Virus record (IMG/VR): IMGVR_UViG_3300028734_000038
Span: 1-39,539 of that record
Direction: 5' to 3' (one strand)
From: a virus
Length of the DNA: 39,539 bases
Under the pieces are notes generated by a model that saw only the letters and a list, made by a program, of their open reading frames with translations, searched no databases and was not told where the DNA came from. The position numbers and the translations under genes are program-made. Below are positions 3,753 to 39,539 of this stretch, in pieces. Each line of letters opens with the position of its first letter. The first letter of the stretch is position 1.

Positions 3753-3782
3753 TGTAACCTTTTCAAAGTTTCTTCGTATAAT
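3753..3782 (+). promoter_or_regulatory. ECF-type promoter upstream of the HNH gene
   Basis: TGTAAC, 16-nt spacer, CGTATAAT. It has the same geometry as the cluster at 34-39 kb but lacks the CTTAAACAAACA leader that follows most copies there. Confidence 0.75.
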
Positions 3783-12211: not shown

Positions 12212-12242
12212 TTGTATTTGTTAATAATTATAAGTATTTTTG
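12212..12242 (+). promoter_or_regulatory. Host-type promoter for tRNA-Ser(GCT)
   Basis: TTG (12212-12214), 20-nt spacer, TATTTTTG (12235-12242). Seven bases later lies the first base of the tRNA, so the transcript would start at the mature 5' end. Confidence 0.75.
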
Positions 12243-12248
12243 TAAAAT

Positions 12249-12339
12249 GGATAGATGCCAGAGTCTGGTTTATCGGGACAACCTGCTAAGTTGTTGTACG
12301 GCGAAAGTCGTGCCGAGGGTTCGAATCCCTCTCTATCCG
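12249..12339 (+). tRNA. tRNA-Ser (GCT)
   Basis: Acceptor GGATAGA/TCTATCC, anticodon arm ACAAC-CTGCTAA-GTTGT reading GCT, a long variable arm (ACGGC-GAAA-GTCGT) proper for Ser, T-arm GAGGG-TTCGAAT-CCCTC. It stands apart from the main island, inside the glycosylation cluster, with its own promoter. Confidence 0.93.
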
Positions 12340-12354
12340 CATAAATGATTGGAT

Positions 12355-21391: not shown

Positions 21392-21421
21392 TGTAACATT
21401 TTGAAAGTTTAAACGTATAAA
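21392..21421 (+). promoter_or_regulatory. ECF-type promoter
   Basis: TGTAAC, 16-nt spacer, CGTATAAA: the correct geometry outside the main cluster. No CTTAAACAAACA leader follows. A terminator-like hairpin overlaps the -10 end. Confidence 0.6.
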
Positions 21422-27122: not shown

Positions 27123-27166
27123 GAAATAGTTTCGAATAAAAACAGTATTTATAAAAAAATACATTT

Positions 27167-28630
27167 ATGACAGATATTATTAAGCTAATCAGCGAAGAAC
27201 TTAACAGACTAACACCTGTTGTACTCAATGAGAACCATATTTACGAAGCCGAAGACGATACAGAGGATCAAGAAGAACCCGAACAAGTTACACAAGCTGC
27301 AAATAACTTCGAACAAATGGCAAACGCCGTTAAGCCAGAAGGCGACGTAGAAGCTATCGGAATGCCAAACGAAAGCCAAATAGGTGGCTTCACTGTCTAT
27401 ATTCCTGTAAGCAGAGAATACTCATTAAATAAGGTAATCGCCTCAATGATCAAAGCAGCGACTAAGCTCGGAGTCACTCCACCTGTTATAACCAAAGGCA
27501 ATAAAACAACTAAGGTAGTTACAGTCGATGGCTACAAATATGCCGTAGACGTAATCCCTGTCAGCGTAAATGTTGATCAAGTGTTCAGAATGCCAGGTAA
27601 TTACAAGCTGGAAGCAGTCGTGGACACAAGAAGCGGCGGAAGTGTTGCAGTGGGTACAGACCCAATTCCTCATGAATTATTAAACGGTTCACAAGATTGC
27701 GACTACTGTCACCAAAAAAGAGATCGTATAAAAAGCTTTATCGTAAGAGGCGGAGCAGACAATGGATATAAAACATTGGGAAGTAATTGTGTAAACAAAT
27801 TCTTAGGAATTAATCCAGCCAAATATTTAAGAATGCTGGACGTATATTCATTGTTTAAAAACACAATGGAACAATTCGAAGAAGATGGCTTTGGAAACGA
27901 AGGTGGCGGCGGTGGATTTGGAATCAGTGCTAAACTAAGAATCTTTGATCTACCAAAAGCAATAACTATTGTTCATAATGTATTAAAAGCAGACGGTGGC
28001 AATATTAAACGTGATTGGGTGTATCCTGATAATGGCAGAAAATACCAAACAAATGAAGGAGAAGCAACTGCTGATAAAGCAGAGGAAATTATGGACGACC
28101 CAGACCAAAGAGATAACATAAAGGTAGACGAGGATTACGTGAAAGGCTTTATTGACTTTTTGAAAAACTTTGAAATACCTAAAGACGCCAAATACGAATT
28201 TCAAGAATATCTTCACAAGATGAAGGAAATCCCTAATAAAGATTTCAGATACGTCGATACTGCCTTCTTAGCTTCTGCCGAAAACTATTTCGACCAAAAC
28301 CAAGCAAGACTCGCTGCGCCAGAATCAAACTTCGTAGGCGAAGAAGGTGCTAAAGTCAAAATAAAAGACGCTACAGTAACTGGCGTTCGCTCTGGCGACG
28401 GTGCATACGGCACATGGTACTTATGGACATTCGTTGACCCAGCAGGTAACGTCTTAAAGAAATTCGGTGAACTTAATACAAAATTCAGAACCTTCGAAGA
28501 CCCTAGACATGATGCATTATTAGGAGATATCAATAAAGGCGATAAATTCAGCTTTACAACGGATATTAAGAAACACGAAGTATTCAATAACCAAAAATCA
28601 ACCCAGCTGGGCAGATTGTCTAAATTCTAA
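27167..28630 (+). CDS. Large zinc-binding phage protein, possible internal head protein
   Basis: 487 residues. Residues 1-22 form an amphipathic helix ending LNE (TDIIKLISEELNRLTP...), like two other proteins downstream. Residues ~25-60 are acidic linker. A treble-clef-like site follows near residue 178: CDYCHQKRDRIKSFIV, then GYKTLGSNCVNKFLG. An acidic/glycine stretch sits near 245. The C-terminus (~395-487; VKIKDATVTGV, then WYLWTFVDPAGNVLKKFG, ending QLGRLSK) looks like an OB-type fold seen at the end of related phage proteins. Nucleic-acid binding is likely; exact role unknown. Confidence 0.78.
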   Translation: MTDIIKLISEELNRLTPVVLNENHIYEAEDDTEDQEEPEQVTQAANNFEQMANAVKPEGDVEAIGMPNESQIGGFTVYIPVSREYSLNKVIASMIKAATKLGVTPPVITKGNKTTKVVTVDGYKYAVDVIPVSVNVDQVFRMPGNYKLEAVVDTRSGGSVAVGTDPIPHELLNGSQDCDYCHQKRDRIKSFIVRGGADNGYKTLGSNCVNKFLGINPAKYLRMLDVYSLFKNTMEQFEEDGFGNEGGGGGFGISAKLRIFDLPKAITIVHNVLKADGGNIKRDWVYPDNGRKYQTNEGEATADKAEEIMDDPDQRDNIKVDEDYVKGFIDFLKNFEIPKDAKYEFQEYLHKMKEIPNKDFRYVDTAFLASAENYFDQNQARLAAPESNFVGEEGAKVKIKDATVTGVRSGDGAYGTWYLWTFVDPAGNVLKKFGELNTKFRTFEDPRHDALLGDINKGDKFSFTTDIKKHEVFNNQKSTQLGRLSKF

Positions 28631-29664: not shown

Positions 29665-30681
29665 ATGAATATCAAAAAACTTATATTGGAAGAAATAATT
29701 ATAAACGAGAATAAACAACTCGCCGATAAGCTGTATTTCAATACAGGTAAATTGGATGAAACTGATAAACAGAAAATATTGTATATCACCAAAGGCGATA
29801 ACACAACAAAATTAATATCAGACATATATTTCGAATATAAAGATTCGTGGAAGTTCCGTGAAGTCGTAAATAATATGCCTTTAGTTCATAACGAACTAGT
29901 AAACTATAATCAAAACGTATTTCCTATTAAAGACTTTGATATTCTTAACTCCAAAAACATTCGCAATATCTATGACATTCTCGTAAACAGACAGTCAATT
30001 ATAAATAACCTAAGAAAACTTCCATCTACAGCTGTCCGTAATATGAAAGCCGATATTAGACAACCTAGGAACTATAATGAAATGCACGACTATAATGATC
30101 GTATGAGCTATTTCATGGCAAACTATTCCCTAGTAGGTAACCGTGACCCAAAACTCTTAAAGAAAATTCATGACAAAATGTTCAAGTCTAACATAACCTT
30201 AGACATGCTGCTAGATTTCGTAGAAGAAAAAGAAAACCTTTTAGGTGGTAAAGAATTTACAAAGGATATGATCAATGACATGATCAGAAACGAAAGCGAT
30301 GAAGACATGTCAATAATATTCGAAACAGATAATGTCATGGTCGTAAAAATAGAGAGCTACGATGCAATAAAAAAAATAGGCTGCAACTCCTTCTGGTGCT
30401 TTACATATGGCGGACAGAGTTCCAGACACTGGAACGAATATTCTTATAACGGAATAGTATACGTAATTATCGATTTCAGCCTGCCAAGCGATGATCCTGA
30501 ATTCATGTTTACATTAATAAAACCTTTACAAAAATATAAATCTTATAACGAAGGCGGCGAAAACGAAGATAGTAGTCCTGTCTTTAATATGGCAAACGAA
30601 AACTATAATAATCCTTACGACGTTCTCATTCGTCTTGTAGGCAAAAATAATATAAAAAAACTATTTACCTTCGATTATTAA
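29665..30681 (+). CDS. Putative virion protein with the shared N-terminal helix
   Basis: 338 residues. Opens NIKKLILEEIIINENK (shared helix, ending NE at 15). The helical middle includes a long Asn/Asp-rich region. The C-terminal part (residues ~225-330) has VMVVKIESYDAIKKIGCNSFWCFTYGG, a Trp-Asn pair (HWNEYSYNG) and VYVIIDFSLP, a pattern I know from conserved jumbo-phage proteins (WC-T...W..Y...G..Y.II). No catalytic assignment. Starts 4 nt after the ADP-ribosyltransferase stop. Confidence 0.75.
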   Translation: MNIKKLILEEIIINENKQLADKLYFNTGKLDETDKQKILYITKGDNTTKLISDIYFEYKDSWKFREVVNNMPLVHNELVNYNQNVFPIKDFDILNSKNIRNIYDILVNRQSIINNLRKLPSTAVRNMKADIRQPRNYNEMHDYNDRMSYFMANYSLVGNRDPKLLKKIHDKMFKSNITLDMLLDFVEEKENLLGGKEFTKDMINDMIRNESDEDMSIIFETDNVMVVKIESYDAIKKIGCNSFWCFTYGGQSSRHWNEYSYNGIVYVIIDFSLPSDDPEFMFTLIKPLQKYKSYNEGGENEDSSPVFNMANENYNNPYDVLIRLVGKNNIKKLFTFDY

Positions 30682-30682
30682 T

Positions 30683-30967
30683 ATGAGATACCTTAAAGAA
30701 TATCAAGAATACATTAAGAAAATCACCGATACATACATTTCTATGCTTACCTGTGACGAAGAAAACACGCCTTTACGCATGTTTAATGTCGTCGATTCCG
30801 TCCCAAATAATGACGGCGAATATATGTCAAAACTAGTAATAGCAGAGAATATCAGAGAGAACAACGCATATGCACTTAAATGGCTCATAACAAATATGAT
30901 GACCTTCGATCAATGGAAACTATTAAACGCATTCAAAGTAGATATCGACGACTTCTATAAGCATTAA
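30683..30967 (+). CDS. Unknown small protein, end of the unit
   Basis: 94 residues, helical with an acidic C-terminus (MRYLKEYQEYIKKITDTYISM, then YALKWLITNMMTFDQWKLL). One base after the previous stop; followed by a terminator, so it closes the transcription unit. Confidence 0.75.
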   Translation: MRYLKEYQEYIKKITDTYISMLTCDEENTPLRMFNVVDSVPNNDGEYMSKLVIAENIRENNAYALKWLITNMMTFDQWKLLNAFKVDIDDFYKH

Positions 30968-30985
30968 ATTTTTTTAAAAAATTTT

Positions 30986-31029
30986 AAACCCTGACTATTT
31001 AGCTAAATGCTTGATTTTCAGGGTTTTTT
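30986..31029 (+). terminator. Rho-independent terminator
   Basis: AAACCCTGA pairs with TCAGGGTTT across a 23-nt loop, followed by T6. Ends the unit at 27-31 kb. Confidence 0.85.
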
Positions 31030-31088
31030 ATAAAAGAGAAATTCTATAATGGTAATTTTTTTCCAGAATTTTTTATAGTCTGTGGAGT

Positions 31089-31190
31089 TACGGCTGCAGC
31101 ACCCCCACCCCTGTGAGGGGGGGTCTGAGGGGGGGGTGTGGGGTGGGGATACCCCTCTGGGGCACTTGTCAGCTGTCTGGCTGCACGATC
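31089..31190. other. GC-rich, G-quadruplex-capable island
   Basis: A short G/C-rich block in an otherwise AT-rich genome. C-runs (31102-31111) are followed by four G-runs of 7, 8, 4 and 4 (31117-31123, 31129-31136, 31140-31143, 31145-31148) separated by 5, 3 and 1 nt: a strong quadruplex candidate. The C-runs can also pair with the later G-runs. No ORF. It sits between the last structural-type gene and the early region, a likely place for an origin, packaging site or genome terminus. Confidence 0.7.
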
Positions 31191-31370
31191 TCGAATGCCG
31201 ACGATAGGCAGTACCACATCAAAACAGGGTCGCTTAAACAGGCTTAAAACGCATAGTGATTATGTTAAGCATTTGGTTATCATATAATTATGATATGTTT
31301 AGTACAACATAATAATATGCTATGATAAATAGGTTAGCTGAATTATTATGTATAACAGAAAAATGTTAGC
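31191..31370. other. Non-coding spacer
   Basis: About 180 bases without an ORF. Contains short GCTTAAA repeats (near 31229 and 31241) and AT-rich tracts (ATAATTATGAT). Likely the flank of the GC island. Confidence 0.4.
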
Positions 31371-31408
31371 AAAAAAAAGATAGCCTATTTCTAAGCTATC
31401 TTTTTTTT
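31371..31408. terminator. Bidirectional terminator
   Basis: A8-GATAGC and GCTATC-T8 around a 10-nt loop. On the minus strand it ends the gene at 31420-31980; on the plus strand it insulates against read-through from the left. Confidence 0.85.
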
Positions 31409-31419
31409 AAAAGCTATCT

Positions 31420-31980
31420 TTATAGCTGAAATATTTTGCCTGATGATTTAACAGTATCCATATTTTCTACAATAAAGGTACGGAACTTGCCAGAAGAGAG
31501 CTTTAATGCTTTGGTAATCAGTTGCTTAGCTATTGTTTTGTCGGCACTGTTTACTTTTTTATATTCGCCTTTGATTAAGGTAGTTTTAGAAATAACCATG
31601 CCAAAAATGTGAACGGCTAAAGTTTCTTTGTGTATTCTGATGCTTGCATTAACATTATGATAAGCATCGGTCTGGGCTTGGCTTGCTACTGTACGATCTT
31701 CGATATTTGCAGACAAGTTTTTTTGAGCTGCAGCAGTCATTTCCAAAAGAGCCAATCTAACAGTTGGTAATAATATGTTAGATTCTTTTGCAATATTGAT
31801 CAAAATTGCATCGCTACAATTTTGCAATTTGCGAAAGTCAGCTTTTTTTATGTTAGCTACCGAAATATTGGTATTAATAACATAATTTGAAATTTCACCG
31901 CTTGTTTTACTTTCGTAGTTTTGGAAACCGATAAACCTTGCACCTTTCAAACCGTCTAATTCTGAAAATAAATTTGCCAT
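31420..31980 (-). CDS. Unknown early phage protein
   Basis: 186 residues starting at ATG 31980 (MANLFSELDGLKG). A 225-residue frame reading from 32097 is rejected: its extra hydrophobic N-terminus is encoded by the promoter (26-nt block 32046-32071 and TATCTTTG at 32031-32024). The protein has ARFIGFQNYESKTSGEISNYVINTN near the start and a helical middle (LLPTVRLALLEMTAAAQKNL), a type I have seen in Bacteroidota phage and mobile elements without known function. It diverges from the GP88-family gene and shares the same promoter class. Confidence 0.75.
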   Translation of the reverse strand: MANLFSELDGLKGARFIGFQNYESKTSGEISNYVINTNISVANIKKADFRKLQNCSDAILINIAKESNILLPTVRLALLEMTAAAQKNLSANIEDRTVASQAQTDAYHNVNASIRIHKETLAVHIFGMVISKTTLIKGEYKKVNSADKTIAKQLITKALKLSSGKFRTFIVENMDTVKSSGKIFQL

Positions 31981-32023
31981 CGTAGGAAATTTTAATGGAA
32001 TAACATCATTGTTAAATCCGATA

Positions 32024-32071
32024 CAAAGATATAGCCATATGGAGGCGAAAACTATGACTTTTATCATGTTT
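32024..32071 (-). promoter_or_regulatory. Class-26 promoter for the minus-strand gene
   Basis: Minus strand: 26-nt block with ATGATAAAAGTCAT then AGTTTTCG (32071 to 32046), 14 nt, TATCTTTG (32031 to 32024). Spacing equals the two plus-strand copies. About 40 nt of leader follow to ATG 31980. Confidence 0.75.
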
Positions 32072-32333
32072 CTAAAAATAAGTGCAAAATAAATCATTTA
32101 TTTTTGATTATATTTGTAACTCACTGGAAATCTGTCACTTAGAAACAAGAGTATTTTTTGATCTTATTTTGTGTATATCTATACTATATATATAGACTAT
32201 TTTTAAAAGTAGGTTAATTTTGTAGCTTAAATTTGAATGATCTTTACAAAGTTGAACACTTATATAGATATGAAATAATAACGGCTAAAAACGGCTTAAA
32301 ATCGAAATTGCATTTATTTTTGATTATTTTTGT
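32072..32333. other. Divergent intergenic region
   Basis: AT-rich spacer between the divergent promoters; no ORF. Contains a long alternating TATA tract (~32190-32205) and a repeat of ACGGCT near 32280-32298 (CGGCTAAAAACGGCTTAAAA), possible regulator sites. Confidence 0.4.
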
Positions 32334-32381
32334 AAACATGATAAAAGTCATAGTTTTGGTATATCAATAGCATTACTTTTG
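32334..32381 (+). promoter_or_regulatory. Class-26 promoter of the GP88-family gene
   Basis: 26-nt block (32334-32359) with the palindrome-like ATGATAAAAGTCAT, 14 nt, TACTTTTG (32374-32381). The leader contains TTTAAAGGTTACAAATTTAAA-like sequence. Confidence 0.75.
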
Positions 32382-32424
32382 ACGTATAAATTATTTAAAG
32401 GTTACAAATTTAAACTATTTTATT

Positions 32425-33186
32425 ATGATGTTCGTAAATTGTTCACAGGCACGCAAAGAAACAAAGTTATCATATATCGGCGGAACAAATATTTCCAGTA
32501 AGATTAAAAAGAATTTAAAGGTTAATATGTTAACCTACATCGTTTACCTTGCGCCATCTGACCATAGTGGACATAATGTTTGCACAAGTTCAACAGTTGA
32601 ATGTCGTTTGGGTTGCCTTGCAACGTCGGGACGCAATATGATGGATATTAATTCTGGTAAACATATTATTAACAATGCAAGAGTCAGGAAAACACAATTG
32701 TTTTTTGATCATAATGAATATTATATGGAATGGCTTGTAGCTGAAATAAAAAGTAAACAGCTAAAAGCTATTAAAGATAATAATTTGTTCAGTGTACGTT
32801 TGAACGGAACGTCGGATATTAACTGGCAAGAAATTATGTTAAATGGCAAGAATATCTTCGAAATCTTTCCAGACGTTCAATTTTATGACTACACAAAGAA
32901 TGCAAAGAAATTTATTAACATAGCAAAAAATTATGATCTTACTTTTTCGTACACTGGAAAAAACTGGTCAACTTGTCAAAGATTATTATCAATAGGGTAC
33001 AATGTTGCAATGATCTTTAAAGATAGCATTCCTAACGATTACAAAGGTTATACTGTACTTAATGGCGATTTAACGGATAATAGGATAGGCGATTTAAAAG
33101 GTTGCATAGTGGGCTTAAAATGGAAAAGAATAGCTAATAAGGAAATAAACGAACAAATCAAAAATAGTGTGTTCGTAATTCAGTAA
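32425..33186 (+). CDS. GP88-family protein
   Basis: 253 residues fitting the phage Gene-product-88 family: KVNMLTYIVYLAPSDHSGHNVC near residue 32, Cys53-x6-Cys60-x3-Cys64, VRLNGTSDINWQEI near 124, VQFYDYTKNAKKF, LTFSYTGKNW, NVAMIFKDS and a C-terminal VLNGDLTDNRIGDLKGCIVGLKWKR. The three closely spaced cysteines and the TIM-barrel-like strand spacing suggest metal or iron-sulfur binding; the activity is not established. Followed by a terminator, so it is a single-gene unit. Confidence 0.9.
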   Translation: MMFVNCSQARKETKLSYIGGTNISSKIKKNLKVNMLTYIVYLAPSDHSGHNVCTSSTVECRLGCLATSGRNMMDINSGKHIINNARVRKTQLFFDHNEYYMEWLVAEIKSKQLKAIKDNNLFSVRLNGTSDINWQEIMLNGKNIFEIFPDVQFYDYTKNAKKFINIAKNYDLTFSYTGKNWSTCQRLLSIGYNVAMIFKDSIPNDYKGYTVLNGDLTDNRIGDLKGCIVGLKWKRIANKEINEQIKNSVFVIQ

Positions 33187-33191
33187 CATAA

Positions 33192-33229
33192 TTAGGGGAC
33201 AATGTTAAACAGAATTGTCCCCTAAATTT
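33192..33229 (+). terminator. Rho-independent terminator
   Basis: A 12-bp stem (TTAGGGGACAAT with its complement), 10-nt loop, then T-rich sequence, 6 bases after the stop at 33186. Confidence 0.85.
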
Positions 33230-33247
33230 ATTTTCATTTATTTTTGC

Positions 33248-33295
33248 AAACATGACAAAAGTCATAGTTTTGGCAATCAAAAGGCCTTATCTTTG
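33248..33295 (+). promoter_or_regulatory. Class-26 promoter of sigma gene 1
   Basis: 26-nt block (33248-33273) with ATGACAAAAGTCAT, 14 nt, TATCTTTG (33288-33295). The leader holds AAAGGTTACAAA, the reverse complement of the ECF -35 region. Confidence 0.78.
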
Positions 33296-33337
33296 TAGTA
33301 TAAATTTTAAAGGTTACAAATTTAAAACTTTCTTATC

Positions 33338-33877
33338 ATGGTACAAACAATCAAATTTGATCAAATTTATTCAGACTACTACAAACGTATTAGTCATTTT
33401 ATTGGTTTGAAAATTGGTTTTAATTCGGGTATTACTGCCGAATTAACAAACGACGTATTTGTAAAAGTTAATTTACATTTAACCGAATTTGATGCAGAAA
33501 AAAGCAGTTTTGGCACATGGATACACACCATCGCAAAAAACATTATGATTGATTATTCCAGAAGCACGGAATACAAAAATCGCTACAAAACTGCACATAT
33601 TGACGATACTGTTAATGATGAACTTCATCAGGTATTTCAAATTGCACACAAAGAAAACAATTCGGATATGGAACAAAACGAGGTTTATGTTCGGATTCAG
33701 GCTTCAATGGCAAAACTAAAGGAAAACGAAAAAACTTTGGTTGAGTTAATTATTCTCAAAGAATACAAATTGAAAGAGGTCGCCGAAATAACAAATATGA
33801 CTTTGGCAAATGTAAAAGTAACGATTATGAGAGCAAAGGAAAAAATGAAGTTACAACTCGCAGATATATATTGTTAA
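33338..33877 (+). CDS. ECF-type sigma factor 1
   Basis: 179 residues, minimal sigma70 with only regions 2 and 4. Region 2 (residues ~8-85): FDQIYSDYYKRISHFIGL, ELTNDVFVKVNLHLTEFD, SFGTWIHTIAKNIMIDYSR. Region 4 (~125-178): LKENEKTLVELIILKEYKLKE, then VAEITNMTLANVKVTIMRAKEKM, a helix-turn-helix that reads the -35. It should direct host RNA polymerase to TGTAAC/CGTA-type promoters. It uses a class-26 promoter itself and ends in a terminator. No anti-sigma gene is visible next to it. Confidence 0.93.
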   Translation: MVQTIKFDQIYSDYYKRISHFIGLKIGFNSGITAELTNDVFVKVNLHLTEFDAEKSSFGTWIHTIAKNIMIDYSRSTEYKNRYKTAHIDDTVNDELHQVFQIAHKENNSDMEQNEVYVRIQASMAKLKENEKTLVELIILKEYKLKEVAEITNMTLANVKVTIMRAKEKMKLQLADIYC

Positions 33878-33881
33878 TCAG

Positions 33882-33918
33882 AACAAATGTCGGGAGCAAT
33901 GTTCCCGACATTTGTTTT
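33882..33918 (+). terminator. Rho-independent terminator
   Basis: A perfect 14-bp stem (AACAAATGTCGGGA with complement), 7-nt loop, T4 tail, right after the sigma gene. Confidence 0.92.
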
Positions 33919-33984
33919 CATCATGTTACAATGTTCACACTTTAAAGATTCAATCCAATGTTAAAGATTATATTCAATTTAGAA

Positions 33985-34107
33985 ATGTCTCAAACCAGAA
34001 TTAACATAATATTAGCACTGATATTCTGTGCATTTATGTTTTTAACTTCATGCAGTTCAGGCAAACAATTGCATAGGTACAATGTTCAAACCGTTCACAA
34101 CTTTTAA
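33985..34107 (+). CDS. Tiny lipoprotein
   Basis: 40 residues from ATG 33985; an in-frame ATG at 33958 would add 9. Lipoprotein signal IILALIFCAFMFLTSC with lipobox LTSC, then SSGKQLHRYNVQTVHNF. Only about 17 residues are left after lipidation. Related in style to the lipoprotein at 35148. Function unknown; a membrane-anchored effector or lysis/exclusion peptide is conceivable. Confidence 0.6.
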   Translation: MSQTRINIILALIFCAFMFLTSCSSGKQLHRYNVQTVHNF

Positions 34108-34108
34108 T

Positions 34109-34246
34109 ATGTTACTACTTACAATGTCCCCAGAATCGTCAATGTCTCCAGCTCAGTTAATTATTTCACTGACTATCTTTATAGTCGTATGTGTTTCCGC
34201 TGGTATTATTCAGGACAAAATTAAATCAAAAAAGAAACCGAAATAA
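34109..34246 (+). CDS. Tiny single-pass membrane protein
   Basis: 45 residues with one membrane helix (AQLIISLTIFIVVCVSAGII) and a basic tail (KIKSKKKPK). Starts 2 nt after the lipoprotein stop, so the two form a pair; its stop is 2 nt before the first clustered ECF promoter. Function unknown. Confidence 0.6.
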   Translation: MLLLTMSPESSMSPAQLIISLTIFIVVCVSAGIIQDKIKSKKKPK

Positions 34247-34247
34247 T

Positions 34248-34277
34248 TGTAACCTATTTGCACAATGTTCGTATAAT
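34248..34277 (+). promoter_or_regulatory. ECF-type promoter for 34332
   Basis: TGTAAC-N16-CGTATAAT followed by CTTAAACAAACAC. It shows that the real start of the downstream gene is ATG 34332. Confidence 0.85.
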
Positions 34278-34331
34278 CTTAAACAAACACTTATCAATGT
34301 ACATTCTTTGTTGTGTTCAAATAATAAAAAT

Positions 34332-34727
34332 ATGAATAAGCAAAAAAAAATATTACAAGCATTGTATAACATTTCTAAATCTGCAAAAGTAGGTTCTGAA
34401 TGTACTTGTCCTTCATGCAACATATTGTTTGTTAAAACAAATTATCAGCAAGCATTTTGTAAATCTAAAAATGGAACATTATGTAAAGATTGGTATTGGA
34501 ATAATGTAACTCCGAATAAACGAAATAATACTACACGAATTTCCCCAGCCAATGCAACATATTATAAAACTACAATTATTCCGAATATGTTGGAAGATCG
34601 TGGCTTTAGAAGTTTAGAAGAAATGAATGAACATATGTTAAATGACGATGGAAGTTGGGGCAGTCATCAATGCGTAGTTGAAAAATGCGAATTTTGTGGA
34701 TATATTAATTGTGAATGTGAGTTTTAA
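34332..34727 (+). CDS. Unknown Cys-rich protein
   Basis: 131 residues from ATG 34332; a longer frame from 34191 runs through the promoter and is rejected. N-terminal helix (MNKQKKILQALYNISKSAK), a zinc-finger-like site CTCPSCNILFVKTNYQQAFC, a central KDWYWNNVTPNKRNN, and a second Cys site at the end (CVVEKCEFCGYINCEC). Two metal sites are likely; probably nucleic-acid or protein binding. Confidence 0.78.
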   Translation: MNKQKKILQALYNISKSAKVGSECTCPSCNILFVKTNYQQAFCKSKNGTLCKDWYWNNVTPNKRNNTTRISPANATYYKTTIIPNMLEDRGFRSLEEMNEHMLNDDGSWGSHQCVVEKCEFCGYINCECEF

Positions 34728-34729
34728 AC

Positions 34730-34759
34730 TGTAACCTTTTTTGATTAGTATCGTATAAT
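34730..34759 (+). promoter_or_regulatory. ECF-type promoter for 34787
   Basis: TGTAAC-N16-CGTATAAT followed by CTTAAACAAACAC; begins 2 nt after the previous stop. Confidence 0.88.
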
Positions 34760-34786
34760 CTTAAACAAACACTAAAACTCTTTATT

Positions 34787-35047
34787 ATGGCACAGGTTCA
34801 AAACAAAATCGCATCACGTCCATTGTACACAATCGCAGGTGAAATCAGAGCTGAATGGCAAAAGGTTTACTTTGGTGCAGTCCCTTATCTTGAGGCAATG
34901 GAATGTCTTACCAGTATTGACCAGAAGTATGGCTGCGATGACGCCAAAAGTATTGTATTGTATTTCCTTAGCAATGCTTCAAGTTTTCGGGGGGATGCCG
35001 CAAAACGCATTAAAATCGAATTGAAAGCAATGTGCGGATTGAAGTAA
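34787..35047 (+). CDS. Small unknown protein
   Basis: 86 residues, helical: PLYTIAGEIRAEWQKVYFGAV, then AMECLTSIDQKYGCDDAKSIVLYFL, then GDAAKRIKIELKAMCG. This is the repeated hypothetical of Bacteroidota mobile elements in which a Trp-containing helix is followed by Y.....AM..L......G.D.A..IV.YFLSNA..WRG..A..IK.ELK; function unknown. Single-gene ECF unit with its own terminator. Confidence 0.78.
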   Translation: MAQVQNKIASRPLYTIAGEIRAEWQKVYFGAVPYLEAMECLTSIDQKYGCDDAKSIVLYFLSNASSFRGDAAKRIKIELKAMCGLK

Positions 35048-35055
35048 ACATAAGC

Positions 35056-35090
35056 AAAACGAACAATGTTCAAATTACATTGTTCGTTTT
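35056..35090 (+). terminator. Terminator fused to the next ECF promoter
   Basis: A perfect 14-bp stem (AAAACGAACAATGT with complement), 7-nt loop. Its last base is the first base of the next TGTAAC, so the promoter's T-rich spacer serves as tail. Confidence 0.85.
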
Positions 35091-35119
35091 GTAACCTTTT
35101 TTAATTAGTATCGTATAAT
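35090..35119 (+). promoter_or_regulatory. ECF-type promoter for 35148
   Basis: TGTAAC-N16-CGTATAAT followed by CTTAAACAAACAC. Confidence 0.88.
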
Positions 35120-35147
35120 CTTAAACAAACACTAAAAAATATTTATC

Positions 35148-35378
35148 ATGAAAAGTTTCAAATCTGTTTTAGTAATCGTTTTCTTATTGTTCACATTGGT
35201 ATTGTTTGGAAGTTGCTCAGCATCCAATGGAACTTATCATAAGTCGAAGGGTAATTATGTTCAATCTCGACATGTGCAAAAAAAATCGGCTCAGATTCGC
35301 AATGGTAATCAGTGGAAGTGCAATCATGGTAAGCACAAAACTTTGCAACAAAAACATAATAAATTCCTGCTTTTTTAA
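35148..35378 (+). CDS. Small lipoprotein, basic
   Basis: 76 residues. Lipoprotein signal SVLVIVFLLFTLVLFGSC, lipobox LFGSC with Cys at ~24, then SASNGTYHKSKGNYVQSRHVQKK and more Lys/His-rich sequence. The mature part is short and very basic. Known cases of tiny lipoproteins in phages act in superinfection exclusion, so that role is possible but unproved. Confidence 0.75.
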   Translation: MKSFKSVLVIVFLLFTLVLFGSCSASNGTYHKSKGNYVQSRHVQKKSAQIRNGNQWKCNHGKHKTLQQKHNKFLLF

Positions 35379-35407
35379 TACTTCTTTTCTCTTTCATTTT
35401 TAGTTTT

Positions 35408-35440
35408 AAAAGGTTACATTAATTTGTAACCTTTTTTTTT
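35408..35440 (+). terminator. Terminator containing the next -35 element
   Basis: AAAAGGTTACA pairs with TGTAACCTTTT (11 bp, 6-nt loop) and runs into a T-tract. The right arm is itself the -35 region of the ECF promoter. Confidence 0.75.
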
Positions 35441-35454
35441 GTTTATCGTATAAT
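35425..35454 (+). promoter_or_regulatory. ECF-type promoter for 35482
   Basis: TGTAAC-N16-CGTATAAT followed by CTTAAACAAACAC. The -35 forms the arm of a hairpin with the upstream GGTTACA. Confidence 0.88.
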
Positions 35455-35481
35455 CTTAAACAAACACTAAAAACATTCATC

Positions 35482-35703
35482 ATGAGACTTTTAAAACTTT
35501 GCGCAAAATGTTCTGATCTTTGCGGTATCTCTTTTCAGAATGGTACTGGTAAAATTCATGAGTCAGACGGATATGTACCCGAAAACATCAATATCGGCGG
35601 CGGAGATTATGTTGAATTGGATATTGATATGGAAACTGGTCAGATTCAAAACTGGAAACCTGTCACCGATGCAGCAATTATTTTATCAATCAAAACGGCT
35701 TAA
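35482..35703 (+). CDS. Small unknown protein with N-terminal Cys cluster
   Basis: 73 residues: LKLCAKCSDLCGISF at the start gives three cysteines, then a glycine-rich strand region (NINIGGGDYVELDIDMETGQIQNW) and a hydrophobic end. Probably a small metal-binding beta protein. Followed by another small gene after 5 nt. Confidence 0.7.
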   Translation: MRLLKLCAKCSDLCGISFQNGTGKIHESDGYVPENINIGGGDYVELDIDMETGQIQNWKPVTDAAIILSIKTA

Positions 35704-35708
35704 ACATC

Positions 35709-35897
35709 ATGGATGATTATTACAATGTTAAAAGGCTTGCATTAGTTTTATCTGTGCAAGCAGAAATCGAAGGAATGAAGGCTGAAAATATGTTGCGTAG
35801 TCAAAATAATGAGTCGCCAGCATACGGCTCTGATCAATTCAATGAATGTGCAAACAAATTGGAAAATTTGGCTTACGCTCACAACGAACAATTGTAA
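35709..35897 (+). CDS. Small helical protein
   Basis: 62 residues, helical (NVKRLALVLSVQAEIEGMKAENMLRS, then FNECANKLENLAYAHNEQ). The TAA stop is part of the following TGTAAC box. No family recognised; second gene of the 35482 unit. Confidence 0.7.
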   Translation: MDDYYNVKRLALVLSVQAEIEGMKAENMLRSQNNESPAYGSDQFNECANKLENLAYAHNEQL

Positions 35898-35922
35898 CCT
35901 TTTTGCACAATGTTCGTATAAT
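35893..35922 (+). promoter_or_regulatory. ECF-type promoter for a tRNA-like RNA
   Basis: TGTAAC-N16-CGTATAAT, but no CTTAAACAAACA leader: the RNA candidate starts 8 bases after the -10, as expected if the transcript begins at its mature 5' end. Confidence 0.85.
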
Positions 35923-35929
35923 ATTAAAA

Positions 35930-36055
35930 GGGAGTTAGCATATATTGTATAATGCGAGAGGCGATTGCCATAGGCACATATTTCCTAATGTGGAAATACT
36001 TTGACAGTCTAAAAGTTGTTACTCTATAAAAAAGGTTCGATTCCTTTTATTCCCA
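35930..36055 (+). ncRNA. tRNA-like RNA of ~126 nt, anticodon arm unclear
   Basis: 5' GGGAGTT pairs with 3' TATTCCC, a D-arm-like GCAT...ATGC follows, and the 3' T-arm AAAGG-TTCGATT-CCTTT is canonical. Between them lie ~70 nt instead of ~25, with a perfect TATTTCC/GGAAATA hairpin and AGAG/CTCT arms that could enclose an insert. No standard 5+7+5 anticodon arm is evident. It may be an intron- or insert-bearing tRNA, a tRNA decoy, or a regulatory RNA using tRNA ends for stability. A tmRNA would be longer. Confidence 0.55.
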
Positions 36056-36063
36056 CTATTTTT

Positions 36064-36093
36064 TGTAACCTATTTGCACAATGTTCGTATAAT
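36064..36093 (+). promoter_or_regulatory. ECF-type promoter for 36114
   Basis: TGTAAC-N16-CGTATAAT followed by CTTAAACAAACAC. The spacer is identical to the promoter at 34248. Confidence 0.88.
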
Positions 36094-36113
36094 CTTAAAC
36101 AAACACAATCATC

Positions 36114-36455
36114 ATGAAAGAATTTAAGATCGAAGGCAAGCCATTAGAAGATTTGAAAACTGTAATGATTTTCAGAAAGTATAAGAACGGCGAAGTCATT
36201 GCTTTAATGCCATACGAAATTGCCGATATGCAGGGTCACATAATGTCATACATGCATCAGGTTCAACATTGTGCAACTGATTACAATGGCGTTGTAAGTC
36301 AAACAAAGTTGGCTAAACCAGAAGAGTATGCCGAATTACTTAAGGAACTTGAATGGGTTGGTTACGAAGTGAAAGCCAATTTAAAAAGAAATCACAATGT
36401 TTATTTGAAAGAGTATTACAGAATCGAGAACCTTTACAAAGAATCTTATAAATAA
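36114..36455 (+). CDS. Small unknown protein
   Basis: 113 residues: KTVMIFRKYKNGEVIALMPYE, then MQGHIMSYMHQVQHCATDYNGVV, then YAELLKELEWVGYEVKANLKRNH and a basic C-terminus. The pattern VIFRK..NGE.IALFP.....G....Y.H.GQHC..DY....T..A...EY..L..EL...GY.L is a recurrent small protein of Bacteroidota mobile elements; function unknown. First of two genes in an ECF unit. Confidence 0.8.
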   Translation: MKEFKIEGKPLEDLKTVMIFRKYKNGEVIALMPYEIADMQGHIMSYMHQVQHCATDYNGVVSQTKLAKPEEYAELLKELEWVGYEVKANLKRNHNVYLKEYYRIENLYKESYK

Positions 36456-36461
36456 ATTAAT

Positions 36462-36620
36462 ATGGTACAGCTACAAAGATCGCAATACATTCCAACGCTA
36501 CAGGAATATAATAACTCAAGGCTGATTGCTACAGATGTTTTATCTGGTCAGGAATATAGAAGGAAACTTCGCAGGGATAAAAGACACCCAGAAAAAATAT
36601 CTTTCAAAGGATATAAATAA
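36462..36620 (+). CDS. Tiny basic protein
   Basis: 52 residues: VQLQRSQYIPTLQEYNNSRL then a strongly basic part (EYRRKLRRDKRHPEKI). Six bases after the previous stop. Could bind nucleic acid by charge; no family recognised. Confidence 0.6.
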   Translation: MVQLQRSQYIPTLQEYNNSRLIATDVLSGQEYRRKLRRDKRHPEKISFKGYK

Positions 36621-36640
36621 TTAACTATTTTTTTGTAACA

Positions 36641-36672
36641 TTTGCAAAAGTCATTTTTATTGTTTATCTTTG
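36641..36672 (+). promoter_or_regulatory. Host-type promoter of sigma gene 2
   Basis: TTTG (36641-36644), 20-nt spacer, TATCTTTG (36665-36672). TGTAAC occurs just upstream but has no CGTA at the right distance. Sigma gene 2 is thus read by host polymerase, not by the ECF class. Confidence 0.75.
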
Positions 36673-36699
36673 TACCCTAATCAATTTAAATAATCTTGT

Positions 36700-37215
36700 A
36701 TGGAAAGGTATTCAGATTTTAATAAAGTTTATGTTGAGCACAAAGCTATGGTGTTTAACTTCGTTCTAATCAGAACAAACAACCGTGAAGTCTCGGAAGA
36801 GATTACAAGCGATGTATTTGTAAAAGTAGCTGAATGTATGGATGTTTTTAATCCTGAGATTGCCAAGTTCACAACTTGGATGCTTACCATAGCAACGAAT
36901 AAGATTAAAGATTACTACAGATCATTGCAGACAGTTGCCAAACTTGGCGAAGTCTATTTATCTGAATACGTTCAAGCCGTTGCCCCAGATAGTAATGATT
37001 CAATTGAAAATGATGAACTAAGGGCACAAATTGATCGTGCTTTTGATGTTCTTAAGGATATTGAAAAACAGGTTGCTGATCTTTATATTAAACAGGATAA
37101 GCAATACAAAGAGATTGCTGCACTGTTGGATATTCCAATTGGCTCAGTCAAAGGCTATTTAAGCCGTGCCAGAATGAAAATGCAAATCTATCTTAAAGAT
37201 GTTTATGCTAACTAA
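36700..37215 (+). CDS. ECF-type sigma factor 2
   Basis: 171 residues, regions 2 and 4 only. Region 2: FNKVYVEHKAMVFNFVLIRT, EITSDVFVKVAECMDVFN, KFTTWMLTIATNKIKDYYRS. Region 4: LKDIEKQVADLYIKQDKQYKE, then IAALLDIPIGSVKGYLSRARMKM. It resembles sigma 1 in length and in the S/T-DVFVKV motif, so the two may be an old duplication or a two-step cascade. It lies inside the ECF-promoter array. No membrane-anchored anti-sigma candidate is adjacent. Confidence 0.93.
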   Translation: MERYSDFNKVYVEHKAMVFNFVLIRTNNREVSEEITSDVFVKVAECMDVFNPEIAKFTTWMLTIATNKIKDYYRSLQTVAKLGEVYLSEYVQAVAPDSNDSIENDELRAQIDRAFDVLKDIEKQVADLYIKQDKQYKEIAALLDIPIGSVKGYLSRARMKMQIYLKDVYAN

Positions 37216-37250
37216 GATATATCTTGTCCATAATAATGTTTGTGTAATTA

Positions 37251-37284
37251 AAAACCCTGAAAGTTGTAACCTTTCAGGGTTTTG
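37251..37284 (+). terminator. Terminator overlapping an ECF promoter
   Basis: AAACCCTGAAAG pairs with CTTTCAGGGTTT around the loop TTGTAAC, which is the -35 of the next promoter; T4 tail. Initiation and termination signals share the same bases. Confidence 0.88.
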
Positions 37285-37294
37285 TTCGTATAAT
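37265..37294 (+). promoter_or_regulatory. ECF-type promoter for 37315
   Basis: TGTAAC-N16-CGTATAAT followed by CTTAAACAAACA. The -35 lies in the loop of the upstream terminator and its spacer is the terminator's right arm. Confidence 0.88.
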
Positions 37295-37314
37295 CTTAAA
37301 CAAACATAGAAATC

Positions 37315-37515
37315 ATGAAAAAGGTTATTTTAACCATTGGCGGCACAAAGTATGAAGTTCACTTCACGATATTAAAGTATGGCTCAAAAGGTTGTTACAT
37401 TACCATTGAATCTGTATTTTCAACAATACAAAACTGCATGTCTATTTTAGGCTACACTGAAACCGATATCGAAAACAAAGTTATTTCTGCCTTATCACAG
37501 GCTACAGATATTTAG
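37315..37515 (+). CDS. Small unknown protein
   Basis: 66 residues, strand-helix-strand: KKVILTIGGTKYEVHFTILKY, then CYITIESVFSTIQNCMSILG, then a C-terminal helix. No family recognised. Single-gene ECF unit; its stop lies 1 nt before the next TGTAAC. Confidence 0.72.
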   Translation: MKKVILTIGGTKYEVHFTILKYGSKGCYITIESVFSTIQNCMSILGYTETDIENKVISALSQATDI

Positions 37516-37516
37516 T

Positions 37517-37546
37517 TGTAACCTTTTTGAATCTGTATCGTATAAT
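37517..37546 (+). promoter_or_regulatory. ECF-type promoter for 37569
   Basis: TGTAAC-N16-CGTATAAT followed by CTTAAACAAACA. Confidence 0.88.
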
Positions 37547-37568
37547 CTTAAACAAACATACCTATATT

Positions 37569-37754
37569 ATGACAGCTTTTGAGAATGAGAATAAAGTTTA
37601 TTACATTAGAAACCTTGGCAGATACGAGGAAGACGAGGACAGCGACATTCGTTTGACAAAGGAACTCAAAAGGCAATCAAAGCCAAAGCGACAGGTTGTT
37701 GAACATAACGTCAGCCAGAAGTTTAATCAAAAATTGAAAAACTCACGACGATAA
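37569..37754 (+). CDS. Small charged protein
   Basis: 61 residues from ATG 37569; a longer frame with a TTG start reads through the promoter and is rejected. Acidic middle (RYEEDEDSDIRLTKEL) and basic C-terminus (KRQSKPKRQVVEHN...). No family recognised. Confidence 0.7.
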   Translation: MTAFENENKVYYIRNLGRYEEDEDSDIRLTKELKRQSKPKRQVVEHNVSQKFNQKLKNSRR

Positions 37755-37835
37755 GTTTTTAGGTCAGGTTCAAGACGGCTGAACTTGGGTAACTGTCTCA
37801 CAAGGTAGCCTACAAGCTTATTTAAAACATATACA
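37755..37835 (+). other. Structured leader between small genes
   Basis: 81 bases holding a GTTCA/TGAAC hairpin (7-nt loop) and no promoter of either class. The next gene is probably expressed from the promoter at 37517. Confidence 0.4.
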
Positions 37836-37997
37836 ATGAAACCAAAGAAGACTATAGGCGTTCTAATCGACTACGTTAAAGCGAACCGAAAAGGCTCAAG
37901 GGACGCAGAACTGGAGCACTCAACTGGATGGACAGCAACGCATAAGGTTCACAAGTCAGACAAAACATATTCCAGAAAAAAGGCAAAGAATCTGTAA
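37836..37997 (+). CDS. Tiny basic protein
   Basis: 53 residues, strongly basic (KPKKTIGVLIDYVKANRKGSR, then HKVHKSDKTYSRKKAKNL). The TAA stop is inside the next TGTAAC. Resembles small Bacteroidota mobile-element proteins with an opening KK..I...I.Y.K..RK.SR..E. Function unknown. Confidence 0.65.
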   Translation: MKPKKTIGVLIDYVKANRKGSRDAELEHSTGWTATHKVHKSDKTYSRKKAKNL

Positions 37998-38022
37998 CCT
38001 TTTTTCTGGAATCTCGTATAAT
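37993..38022 (+). promoter_or_regulatory. ECF-type promoter without the usual leader
   Basis: TGTAAC-N16-CGTATAAT; followed by ATAGTGTAGCC, not CTTAAACAAACA. No ORF before the next promoter at 38071, so either a very short RNA or a tandem promoter for 38121. Confidence 0.8.
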
Positions 38023-38070
38023 ATAGTGTAGCCTTATGGATTAAGCCTAAATAATTATTTTGATATTAGT

Positions 38071-38100
38071 TGTAACCTTTTTTGATATTCATCGTATAAT
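38071..38100 (+). promoter_or_regulatory. ECF-type promoter for 38121
   Basis: TGTAAC-N16-CGTATAAT followed by CTTAAACAAACAC. Confidence 0.88.
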
Positions 38101-38120
38101 CTTAAACAAACACAACGATC

Positions 38121-38348
38121 ATGGCAATAGTAAAAAAGAATTTTAAAGTAATCGGCAAAATCGACAGAGGTAATGGCATCGAAGATTATCCAATTTTTCT
38201 CATGGTCTCTTATGATCAAAAGAAAGGCGAAAACTCAACGTCAATTGATGAAGATGTTCTTTTTGATGTTGAAAATTTGGCAAAAGAACATTTTTTACTA
38301 AATATGAACGTTCCGTATTACGGTGCAAAATCTATTACCGTTGTGTAA
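38121..38348 (+). CDS. Small unknown protein
   Basis: 75 residues: AIVKKNFKVIGKIDRGNGIEDY, then DVLFDVENLAKEHFLLNMNV, ending GAKSITVV. Its TAA stop lies inside the next -35 element. Alpha/beta, no family recognised. Single-gene ECF unit. Confidence 0.72.
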   Translation: MAIVKKNFKVIGKIDRGNGIEDYPIFLMVSYDQKKGENSTSIDEDVLFDVENLAKEHFLLNMNVPYYGAKSITVV

Positions 38349-38373
38349 CCTTTTTTGATATTCATCGTATAAC
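38344..38373 (+). promoter_or_regulatory. ECF-type promoter for 38394
   Basis: TGTAAC-N16-CGTATAAC (one change in the -10) followed by CTTAAACAAACA. Spacer identical to the promoter at 38071, suggesting recent duplication of promoter cassettes. Confidence 0.85.
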
Positions 38374-38393
38374 CTTAAACAAACATTAAGACA

Positions 38394-38837
38394 ATGAAAC
38401 TTTATACAACGACTGCAAAAGGTAATTCATTTTTGGCAAAGACTAATTCAAAAGTCATCGAAGCTATTGACAATGTGATTAATACGGGTATTCGTATTCG
38501 CTTTTGGTATGGCGATGATGAAACGGGCTGTTCGTGGGTTGAAGAAAATGATACAATTGGAACCATCGGTAGGTCAACAGGTGACTATAAAATACCATTA
38601 TTAATTAAGAATAAACGATCTTTAGGCGGCGGCGCAATACTTACTCATTGTATTGTGAAATTGGTCGATATATCCAATAATAAAGTTTTATATGTTCACC
38701 CAAAATTCAGCCTACCAGAAATAGACTGTTATTTCATGAAAGTTATTGTTGATCATAAAGTATATGCAAACTGTGATTCATGGAATCAGGCGATAAGATT
38801 AACAAAGTTTTTAACAGGTCAAAGAAATTGTAAATAG
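38394..38837 (+). CDS. Unknown protein, small beta-rich
   Basis: 147 residues: IRIRFWYGDDETGCSWVEENDTIG then a Gly-rich GRSTGDYKIPLLIKNKRSLGGGAIL, a HCIVKLVDISNNKVLYVHP segment, and a C-terminal helix. The RIRF.YGD..TG..W.EE....G.IGRS.G..K.PLLI......GG..IL....V.I.......Y.HP..... layout is a phage hypothetical seen in several lineages; function unknown. Single-gene ECF unit. Confidence 0.82.
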   Translation: MKLYTTTAKGNSFLAKTNSKVIEAIDNVINTGIRIRFWYGDDETGCSWVEENDTIGTIGRSTGDYKIPLLIKNKRSLGGGAILTHCIVKLVDISNNKVLYVHPKFSLPEIDCYFMKVIVDHKVYANCDSWNQAIRLTKFLTGQRNCK

Positions 38838-38859
38838 GTTGTTTATTCTTTTAGACATT

Positions 38860-38889
38860 TGTAACCTTTTTTAATAGTTTGCGTATAAT
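38860..38889 (+). promoter_or_regulatory. ECF-type promoter for 38912
   Basis: TGTAAC-N16-CGTATAAT followed by CTTAAACAAACAC. Confidence 0.88.
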
Positions 38890-38911
38890 CTTAAACAAAC
38901 ACTTCGACATC

Positions 38912-39211
38912 ATGTTAGAATTCACGAACGCAAGGTCATTCAATTTTAGCTTAAAGAAAGCAGTACAAAAGGAAACAGGCTTAAAAGTATCCGTTGAGAT
39001 CATAAACAGTTACAACTTTCCAAAGTGCTGGGTTCGCATACATGCGCCAAGACCAATAATGTTTTCAAACGAATTCAGGCAAAAAGTATTTACCGCTTGT
39101 GGCTACGACAGCAAAGGACTTTTGGATAGTGACGATATTTGCTATGGTAACATAATGCCTAGCAATATCAGTGCCCATGTTCCCGAATGGCTGAAAGTAT
39201 TCCCTGACTAG
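38912..39211 (+). CDS. Small unknown protein
   Basis: 99 residues from ATG 38912; the longer frame starting at TTG 38879 runs through the promoter. RSFNFSLKKAVQKETGLKVSVE, then PKCWVRIHAPRPIMFSNEFRQKVF, then HVPEWLKVFPD. Alpha/beta, no family recognised. Single-gene ECF unit with terminator. Confidence 0.72.
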   Translation: MLEFTNARSFNFSLKKAVQKETGLKVSVEIINSYNFPKCWVRIHAPRPIMFSNEFRQKVFTACGYDSKGLLDSDDICYGNIMPSNISAHVPEWLKVFPD

Positions 39212-39229
39212 TAAGATAGTCGAATGACT

Positions 39230-39270
39230 ACAAAGATAGTTAATAATTAAGTTGGCTATCTTTGTAACCT
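39230..39270 (+). terminator. Terminator overlapping the next ECF promoter
   Basis: ACAAAGATAG pairs with CTATCTTTGT (10 bp); the right arm ends in the TGTAAC of the next promoter, whose T-rich spacer acts as tail. Confidence 0.75.
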
Positions 39271-39292
39271 TTTTGAATATTCATCGTATAAT
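39263..39292 (+). promoter_or_regulatory. ECF-type promoter for 39319
   Basis: TGTAAC-N16-CGTATAAT followed by CTTAAACAAACAC. Confidence 0.88.
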
Positions 39293-39318
39293 CTTAAACA
39301 AACACTAAAACATTTATC

Positions 39319-39534
39319 ATGGCTGCAACAAAATTACAAGAAAGACATTTTGAAAACGAATTAGTTCATAATCCGAGCTTATATGTCGATCAGACATGCA
39401 ACATGGTTAATCTAACCATTCTGGCAGAAAGTTTTATCGACGAACACCAACCAGCGAACAAAGAACAGGTTTATGAATCAGCTATAGATTGGTTCAAAGG
39501 TTGGAGAGGTAATGTAAGATATCATAATAATTAA
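39319..39534 (+). CDS. Small unknown protein, complete at window end
   Basis: 71 residues: AATKLQERHFENELVHNPSL, then LTILAESFIDEHQPANKEQVYESAIDWFKG, a helical small protein. Stop at 39532-39534. No family recognised; last member of the ECF array visible here. Confidence 0.72.
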   Translation: MAATKLQERHFENELVHNPSLYVDQTCNMVNLTILAESFIDEHQPANKEQVYESAIDWFKGWRGNVRYHNN

Positions 39535-39539
39535 AAATA

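Follow-up and report, generated by a model that had tools for sequence, protein, structure and literature searches.

The promoter TGTAAC-N16-CGTATAA, which would mark the early and middle genes of a group of phages, is most likely read by a phage-encoded ECF sigma factor that would itself be made by host sigma-A, with a second promoter, GTATTTATA, probably defining a separate late class. The window examined, a 39.5-kb stretch comprising positions 1 to 39,539 of IMGVR_UViG_3300028734_000038, belongs to a lineage of T4-like jumbo phages whose hosts are probably Bacteroidota. The T4 gp20 portal, sheath and rIIA/rIIB were found in relatives such as G023, G032 and G041, and none of them in this fragment.

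Known promoters of ECF sigma factors, such as SigW, combine a -35 of AAC type with a -10 of CGT type, and the repeated element has, as sequence, both boxes and a spacer of about 16 nt. The window contains fifteen copies, each on the + strand. The first-pass annotation had counted 13 within 34248-39292 and two others, starting at 3753 and 21392; every one was recovered, and 100 dinucleotide shuffles of the window yielded no TGTAAC-N16-CGTATAA. A scan of the window for TGTAAC-Nk-CGTA at k=8-24 gave 15 matches at k=16 and 0-1 at each other k, a sharp peak that agrees with the exact 16-nt spacing described earlier. The variant -10 CGTATAAC was seen once, in the copy at 38344, and the 21392 copy reads CGTATAAA. 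The uniform leader noted behind most copies is CTTAAACAAACA, present 3' of 11 of the 13 array copies. Its origin by gene duplication was ruled out, as the array genes show no paralogy and the sole pairs are tandem promoters of one gene.

Outside the array, the predicted promoters are 3753..3782, ahead of gene 3855-4526 (HNH/HTH), and 21392..21420, ahead of gene 21462-22499, at whose ortholog the motif is kept in four other phages. Within the array, again on the + strand, ECF-type promoters lie at 34248..34277 (gene 34332-34727), 34730..34759 (gene 34787-35047, with a motif-bearing ortholog in four other phages), 35090..35119 (gene 35148-35378), 35425..35454 (gene 35482-35703), 36064..36093 (gene 36114-36455), 37265..37294 (gene 37315-37515), 37517..37546 (gene 37569-37754), 38071..38100 (gene 38121-38348), 38344..38373 (gene 38394-38837), 38860..38889 (gene 38912-39211) and 39263..39292 (gene 39319-39534). 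The proposal of one gene per promoter holds for these 11 of the 13 copies, each with a small ORF 21-55 nt downstream, and fails for the other two: the copy at 35893..35922 is followed by a tRNA-like RNA (about 35930-36055), and the copy at 37993..38022, which has no ORF of its own, stands in tandem 78 nt upstream of 38071 and serves the same gene. A 13-bp hairpin (37252-37283) carries the -35 of the 37265 promoter in its loop, giving a terminator/promoter composite; that every copy is such a composite was ruled out, as just a minority exceed shuffles. In the near-identical contig G001 (IMGVR_UViG_3300030002_000060) about 10 further copies occur in the next 3.7 kb, so the array continues beyond the window end. 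A megablast of 30000-39539 against phage records gave no match.

Two ECF sigma genes had been placed inside the array. One of them, ECF2 (171 aa; 36700..37215, + strand), is indeed there; the other, ECF1 (179 aa; 33338..33877, + strand), lies just upstream, at the array head, 371 nt before the first array motif. Both proteins match Pfam models for region 2 and region 4 only (Sigma70_r2 and r4_2 in ECF1), with no region 3, and their best Foldseek and phmmer matches are ECFs. Together with their relatives in other phages they make up what we call class B, whose members form their own clade of phage ECFs, separate from host ECFs. ECF2 is 67% identical to the G002 ECF, and its best AlphaFold/Foldseek matches are likewise ECF sigmas. 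The predicted fold is that of an ECF, and its region 4 matches, at 1.5 Å, the region 4 of sigma-E in complex with -35 DNA; the domain packing of the structure model is of low confidence (pTM 0.44). The search for co-occurrence of motif and sigma genes in related phages, which the annotation had suggested as a check, showed that a class B gene heads a motif array in six phages, at a distance of 49-2,113 nt from the first promoter downstream; in these six the 6 kb that follow the gene contain 3-13 motifs on the same strand, and the 6 kb that precede it contain 0. Four further contigs (G008, G017, G024 and G046) have arrays without a class B gene and are cut at the array head.

The class B genes may be served by host-type boxes rather than by the ECF motif, so that autoregulation, common among ECFs and not strictly defining, is not seen. 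Most have upstream the box TAnnTTTG, which is read by Bacteroidota sigma-A (PMC9723704); this is the case in the window, G002, G003 and G032, and no obvious TAnnTTTG box was found near the class B start in G010 and G023. The exact motif TGTAAC-N16-CGTATAA was found upstream of a class B gene in G037 and of no other, and a CGTTAAA variant in G032. In the window, a palindrome, ATGACAAAAGTCAT, and a TATCTTTG box of immediate-early type lie upstream of ECF1 (33250..33292, + strand), and ECF2 has a predicted host sigma-A type promoter, TTTG-N20-TATCTTTG, without the ECF motif (36642..36672, + strand). No anti-sigma domain was found among the neighbours scanned, which covered part of the small ORFs.

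Related jumbo-phage contigs carry 6-60 copies of the motif per contig read. The spacer peak is at 16 nt alone in every contig except G010, G026 and G041, where it is at 16/17. From about 77 to 100% of copies are intergenic, versus 4-16% of random positions, and the median distance from motif to ATG is about 20 nt. Among ortholog pairs of <75% identity, the motif is present at both members of 78, versus 6.8 expected and <=26 in permutations. The genes it precedes include rIIA (in 6/6 phages), rIIB, Dda, DNA ligase and RtcB. Among cultured or reference phages, the motif is absent from PAU, PTm1, pT24, DAC19, crAss cr6_1, the 642-kb LR756502 and Microcystis MaAM05, and hence is not shared by Bacteroidota jumbo phages in general.

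The motif appears to be one part, the early/middle class, of a broader programme, which the first-pass annotation had not described. A second, T4-late-like promoter, GTATTTATA, lacks a -35 and lies upstream of structural genes, namely those for the T4-type portal, tail sheath, baseplate and fibres. In the window a predicted copy is at 27145..27153 (+ strand), ahead of gene 27167-28630, with more copies at 3836 and 18020. Orthologs swap between the motif class and the GTATTTATA class in 1 of 2,425 pairs. Geometry, right-strand placement, conservation at orthologs, co-occurrence with ECF genes and an array-head ECF in six phages, each established by computation, support reading the array as an ECF regulon, as first proposed; the functional split of the two motifs was established in the same way. 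The phages also encode a second, primase-linked sigma, class A, whose profiles match SigW and SigE; its identification as a gp55 homolog by sequence was not supported, as it matches cellular ECFs. Both sigma classes are present in each of the three contigs that reach or exceed about 300 kb (G010, G023 and G032).

The main rival to a phage reader holds that the promoters are real, but are read by a host ECF, that of the rpoD/Band-7 promoters of Flavobacteriia, and that the phage ECFs act otherwise. An extended consensus, TGTAACCTTT-N12-CGTATAAT, is shared by the phages with about 39 Bacteroidota loci, upstream of rpoD, queA and Band-7 genes; for the rpoD and queA copies, which the earlier annotation did not include, chance origin was ruled out because the same genes recur. 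As the motif's sequence is also present on Bacteroidota chromosomes, it can probably be read by host ECFs. In F. psychrophilum, T9SS and Band-7 genes are served by an ECF motif that includes a CGT box (PMC9723704). Further, G041, G026 and G016 have motifs without a class B gene, although the rIIA/rIIB region is apparently missing from them too, so that these contigs may be incomplete. We nevertheless consider a host reader unlikely, given the phage clade formed by class B and its place at the array head, and given that motif density in the phages is >1,000-fold above that in Bacteroidota genomes, 118 of which have the exact motif at chance level overall. Less probable still is that class A, ECF-like by its profile matches, reads TGTAAC-N16-CGTATAA and class B something else. 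This would account for G041, G026, G016, G008 and G017, which have class A and the motif without class B, but the class A gene is never within 6 kb of a motif array (the nearest motif is 16-27 kb off), the -35-less second promoter also needs a reader, and G002, G003 and the window, all incomplete, have motifs and class B with no class A found. It is very improbable that we are dealing with a dispersed repeat or with a host housekeeping sigma promoter: TATAAT does occur within CGTATAAT, and the leader CTTAAACAAACA is copied along, but between phages just the two boxes and their spacing are kept while spacer and leader vary, the array genes are not paralogous, and the sigma-A box TAnnTTTG sits elsewhere in these phages.

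On the preferred reading, in which a phage class B ECF is the reader, we infer which sigma acts at which promoter, and when, from sequence. Immediately after infection, a promoter of the host sigma-A type (TAnnTTTG) would drive synthesis of a class B ECF. This ECF (here ECF1 and/or ECF2) would read TGTAAC-N16-CGTATAA and redirect host core RNA polymerase to an early/middle regulon whose members, dozens in number, would be small takeover genes, replication and rII genes, tRNAs and small RNAs. The virion genes would use GTATTTATA, the reader of which is probably the primase-linked class A sigma. A bolder version, which we offer tentatively, is a relay from sigma-A to phage ECF to an ECF-like late sigma acting at a -35-less promoter, in which the middle tier was copied from the hosts' rpoD promoter class, so that the phage ECF could act on the host primary sigma gene, and some array promoters double as the preceding gene's terminator.

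The Bacillus phage SPO1 has a sigma cascade in which gp28 serves middle and gp33/gp34 late genes. We know of no sequence relationship between its factors or promoters and those described here. As in SPO1, a phage sigma made early would turn the host's core polymerase to middle genes, and another would then turn it to late ones; here, however, the middle role would fall to an ECF of two domains and an AAC/CGT promoter, in T4-like jumbo phages probably of Bacteroidota. PMC9429907 names gp28 and gp34 as regulators of SPO1 middle and late genes. The T4 scheme uses sigma70 with AsiA/MotA for early and middle genes and gp55 for late genes (PMC5780444), and resembles the present one in its gene classes (rIIA, rIIB, Dda and ligase versus portal and sheath) and in a late promoter without a -35. 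Whereas T4 middle promoters, read by MotA and host sigma70, have a MotA box and a sigma70 -10 with no ECF -35, the middle class here has a full ECF -35/-10, a conserved TGTAAC followed 16 nt on by CGTATAA; the late element is GTATTTATA rather than T4's TATAAATA, and class A matches cellular ECFs, not gp55. Cellular ECF regulons (B. subtilis SigW; F. psychrophilum SM6) share the AAC -35, the spacer of about 16 nt, the CGT -10 and a two-domain sigma, but not the dozens of promoters in tens of kb or the phage sigma clade, and here no anti-sigma partner was recognised. The crAss-like and Bacteroides DAC phages are like these in encoding an ECF-like sigma in Bacteroidota phages; theirs have <30% identity and fall outside the class B clade, and cr6_1 and DAC19 lack the motif.

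Neither this promoter nor its regulon is described in the open-licence literature searched, which likewise yielded no earlier report of a phage switch that places one promoter before dozens of early/middle genes and, most likely, encodes its own ECF reader. As far as literature searches show, how Bacteroidota jumbo phages control transcription has not been described, and the sequences supply two putative temporal promoter classes, the likely sigma of each and dozens of target genes. The regulon thereby becomes testable with two purified proteins, and the promoter parts would be usable in Bacteroidota. That the promoter is shared with host rpoD raises the question of whether the phage switch touches the host's primary sigma gene.

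The window, a 39,539-base IMG/VR virus fragment of 34% G+C, contains 15 copies of TGTAAC-N16-CGTATAA, all on the + strand, and none appeared in 100 shuffles; spacings other than 16 between the boxes gave single hits at most. The first-pass annotation had described 13 array copies (34248-39292) and two elsewhere (3753 and 21392), nearly always before a tiny gene and mostly followed by a uniform leader. This description holds: a small ORF lies 21-55 nt downstream in 11 of the 13 array copies, and CTTAAACAAACA directly follows the motif in 11 of 13. The annotation had also put two ECF sigma genes inside the array; ECF2 (36700-37215) lies there, but ECF1 (33338-33877) is outside. The array is carried on in a near-identical contig, G001 (IMGVR_UViG_3300030002_000060). 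A pattern scan of IMG/VR yielded 70 stretches with the motif, and whole records of related jumbo-phage contigs carry 52 (G002, 148 kb), 43 (G003), 47 (G023, 321 kb), 35 (G024), 29 (G032), 27 (G046) and 22 (G008) copies, while the reversed pattern gave zero in 50 of 50 records. Sixteen nt is the spacer peak in each fully read contig, 17 also being accepted in G010, G026 and G041, and the copies are mostly intergenic and on the coding strand, a median of ~20 nt from the ATG. Judged from its sequence, TGTAAC-N16-CGTATAA is a widespread phage promoter.

The same sequence was found in hosts. Across 84,980 prokaryote species, TGTAACCTTT-N12-CGTATAAT matched at 45 loci, ~39 of them in Bacteroidota. 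By recurring protein start, the downstream genes encode a 287-aa RpoD-type sigma (~16 flavobacteria), QueA (~10 Bacteroidales) and Band-7 or linked membrane proteins (~7), names confirmed by scans of representatives (one for RpoD, one for QueA, two for Band-7). TGTAAC-N15/16-CGTC precedes several host ECF genes themselves, and in F. psychrophilum T9SS and Band-7 genes are served by an ECF motif that includes a CGT box (PMC9723704). The match to host promoters supports function, yet it leaves as the main rival a host ECF that reads the phage promoters, the same sequence standing before the host RpoD-type sigma, QueA and Band-7 genes. In 118 Bacteroidota genomes the motif showed no excess over control level, so hosts have a few such promoters and no arrays. 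A copied repeat is an unlikely origin of the motif, because the -35 and -10 are kept across phages while spacer and leader differ (CTTAAACAAACA in the window versus CATAGAAACAAA in G002), as expected of a sigma-read element, and the array genes are not paralogs. Separately, flavobacterial rpoD (loci L196, L203 and others) and Bacteroidales queA (L189, L193 and others) have the TGTAACCTTT-N12-CGTATAAT promoter in common; from sequence, a primary sigma gene is possibly under host ECF control. The phage-like contig DYPF01000022.1 (L227/L230) has 18 copies of the motif; its assignment to a Chloroherpeton MAG is probably a binning error.

The phage sigma genes form two clades (support 100/100). Class A, present in G008, G010, G016, G017, G023, G026, G032 and G041, lies directly 3' of an ORF that we read as putatively primase-like, with no motif within 6 kb. 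Class B comprises ECF1, ECF2 and the ECFs of G002, G003, G010, G023 and G032. The motif search in related phages, proposed earlier as a check on co-occurrence of motif and sigma gene, showed that class B stands at the array head in six of six phages carrying it: the nearest downstream motif on its strand is 49-2,113 nt away, and the 6 kb downstream contain 3-13 motifs, the 6 kb upstream none. The probability of this placement, a product of per-phage chances under criteria set after the data were seen, is a rough value only. Arrays without class B in G008, G017, G024 and G046 belong to fragments that start at the array head. G041, G026 and G016 have the motif without class B and also miss recognisable rIIA/rIIB; they may be incomplete, but the case for a phage ECF as reader has a real gap here.

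The AlphaFold model of ECF2 (eight sequences; pLDDT 77) has a pTM of 0.44, so its domain packing is unsure. Its top Foldseek matches are ECF sigmas, and region 4 alone superposes at 1.5 A on the same region of E. coli sigma-E in complex with -35 DNA. Upstream of most class B genes is a TAnnTTTG box. A palindrome-like element, ATGAYAAAAGTCATAGTTTT, is common to ECF1, gene 32425 and a divergent gene, and is followed by TAnCTTTG at 32062(-), 32343 and 33257, as at G002 107295(-); ECF2 has only the AAAAGTCAT half (36646). ATGAYAAAAGTCATAGTTTT may serve immediate-early promoters as an operator or as an activator site. A conserved divergent gene without an assigned function adjoins the class B ECF in five phages: the window (31420-32097(-)) and, as orthologs, G002, G003, G010 and G023.

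Words enriched upstream of genes included a second element, GTATTTATA, which has no -35, and the host-type TAnnTTTG box. GTATTTATA, with AAA at about +11 to +13, occurs at 3836, 18020 and 27145 and throughout G023, G032, G041 and G010. The ECF motif precedes rIIA (4 of 50 scanned genes), rIIB (up to 6), DNA ligase, Dda, RtcB and an exonuclease. GTATTTATA precedes T4-type portal (3), tail sheath (2), baseplate and fibre genes, and in standing before virion genes of T4-like phages resembles a late promoter. Among 2,425 reciprocal-best ortholog pairs (<75% identity), both members had the ECF motif in 78, versus an expectation of 6.8, and the late motif in 209, versus an expectation of 59.7; one pair swapped class. 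For the ECF motif, permutations averaged 12.6 pairs and reached at most 26, and this maximum is the fairer yardstick because the pairs are mutually non-independent. From homology to T4 genes and the T4 early/middle/late scheme (PMC5780444), we infer that the ECF motif marks an early/middle class and GTATTTATA a late class.

In a minority of promoters the -35 lies inside a strong hairpin loop, the 3' arm and T-run occupying the spacer. Of 393 copies, 13 have stems of >=8 bp, whereas shuffling the spacers gave 4.1 on average and 8 at most. The window example (37252-37283, copy at 37265) has a 13-bp stem, and others occur in G008, G003, G023, G010 and L227/L230. Such overlapping, terminator-like elements could both terminate the preceding transcript and initiate the one that follows. 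Other targets of the motif by position are tRNA-like genes and a small RNA with core GTAGACTCCAACCTACCTTATAnnCTGAnTTTAGA that recurs (G002 125134; G003 48827/42977/37516; G023 190350; G032 37949) and is not in Rfam. A tRNA-like RNA at 35930-36055, with its own ECF-type promoter, was missed by ARAGORN and fell below the Rfam threshold (20.1 bits); perhaps it carries an insertion. The window also holds 12-13 phage tRNA genes (3542-12340), several unusually long (85-92 nt), and a Mom-like DNA modification protein (26217-27122, PHROG 1384).

A Bacteroidota host is probable, judging from the TAnnTTTG boxes and from the match to host promoters. Known phage sigma cascades include SPO1 gp28/gp34 and T4 gp55, as cited in PMC9429907; in the literature searched, no early/middle regulon read by an ECF sigma is reported for T4-like jumbo phages with probable Bacteroidota hosts. 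In the simplest reading, host sigma-A would express the phage ECF, and the phage ECF (ECF1, ECF2 or both as candidates) would turn on the early/middle motif genes, with a late sigma as the next step of the relay. Given the same sequence in hosts, the phage promoters are a host promoter class employed at high density.
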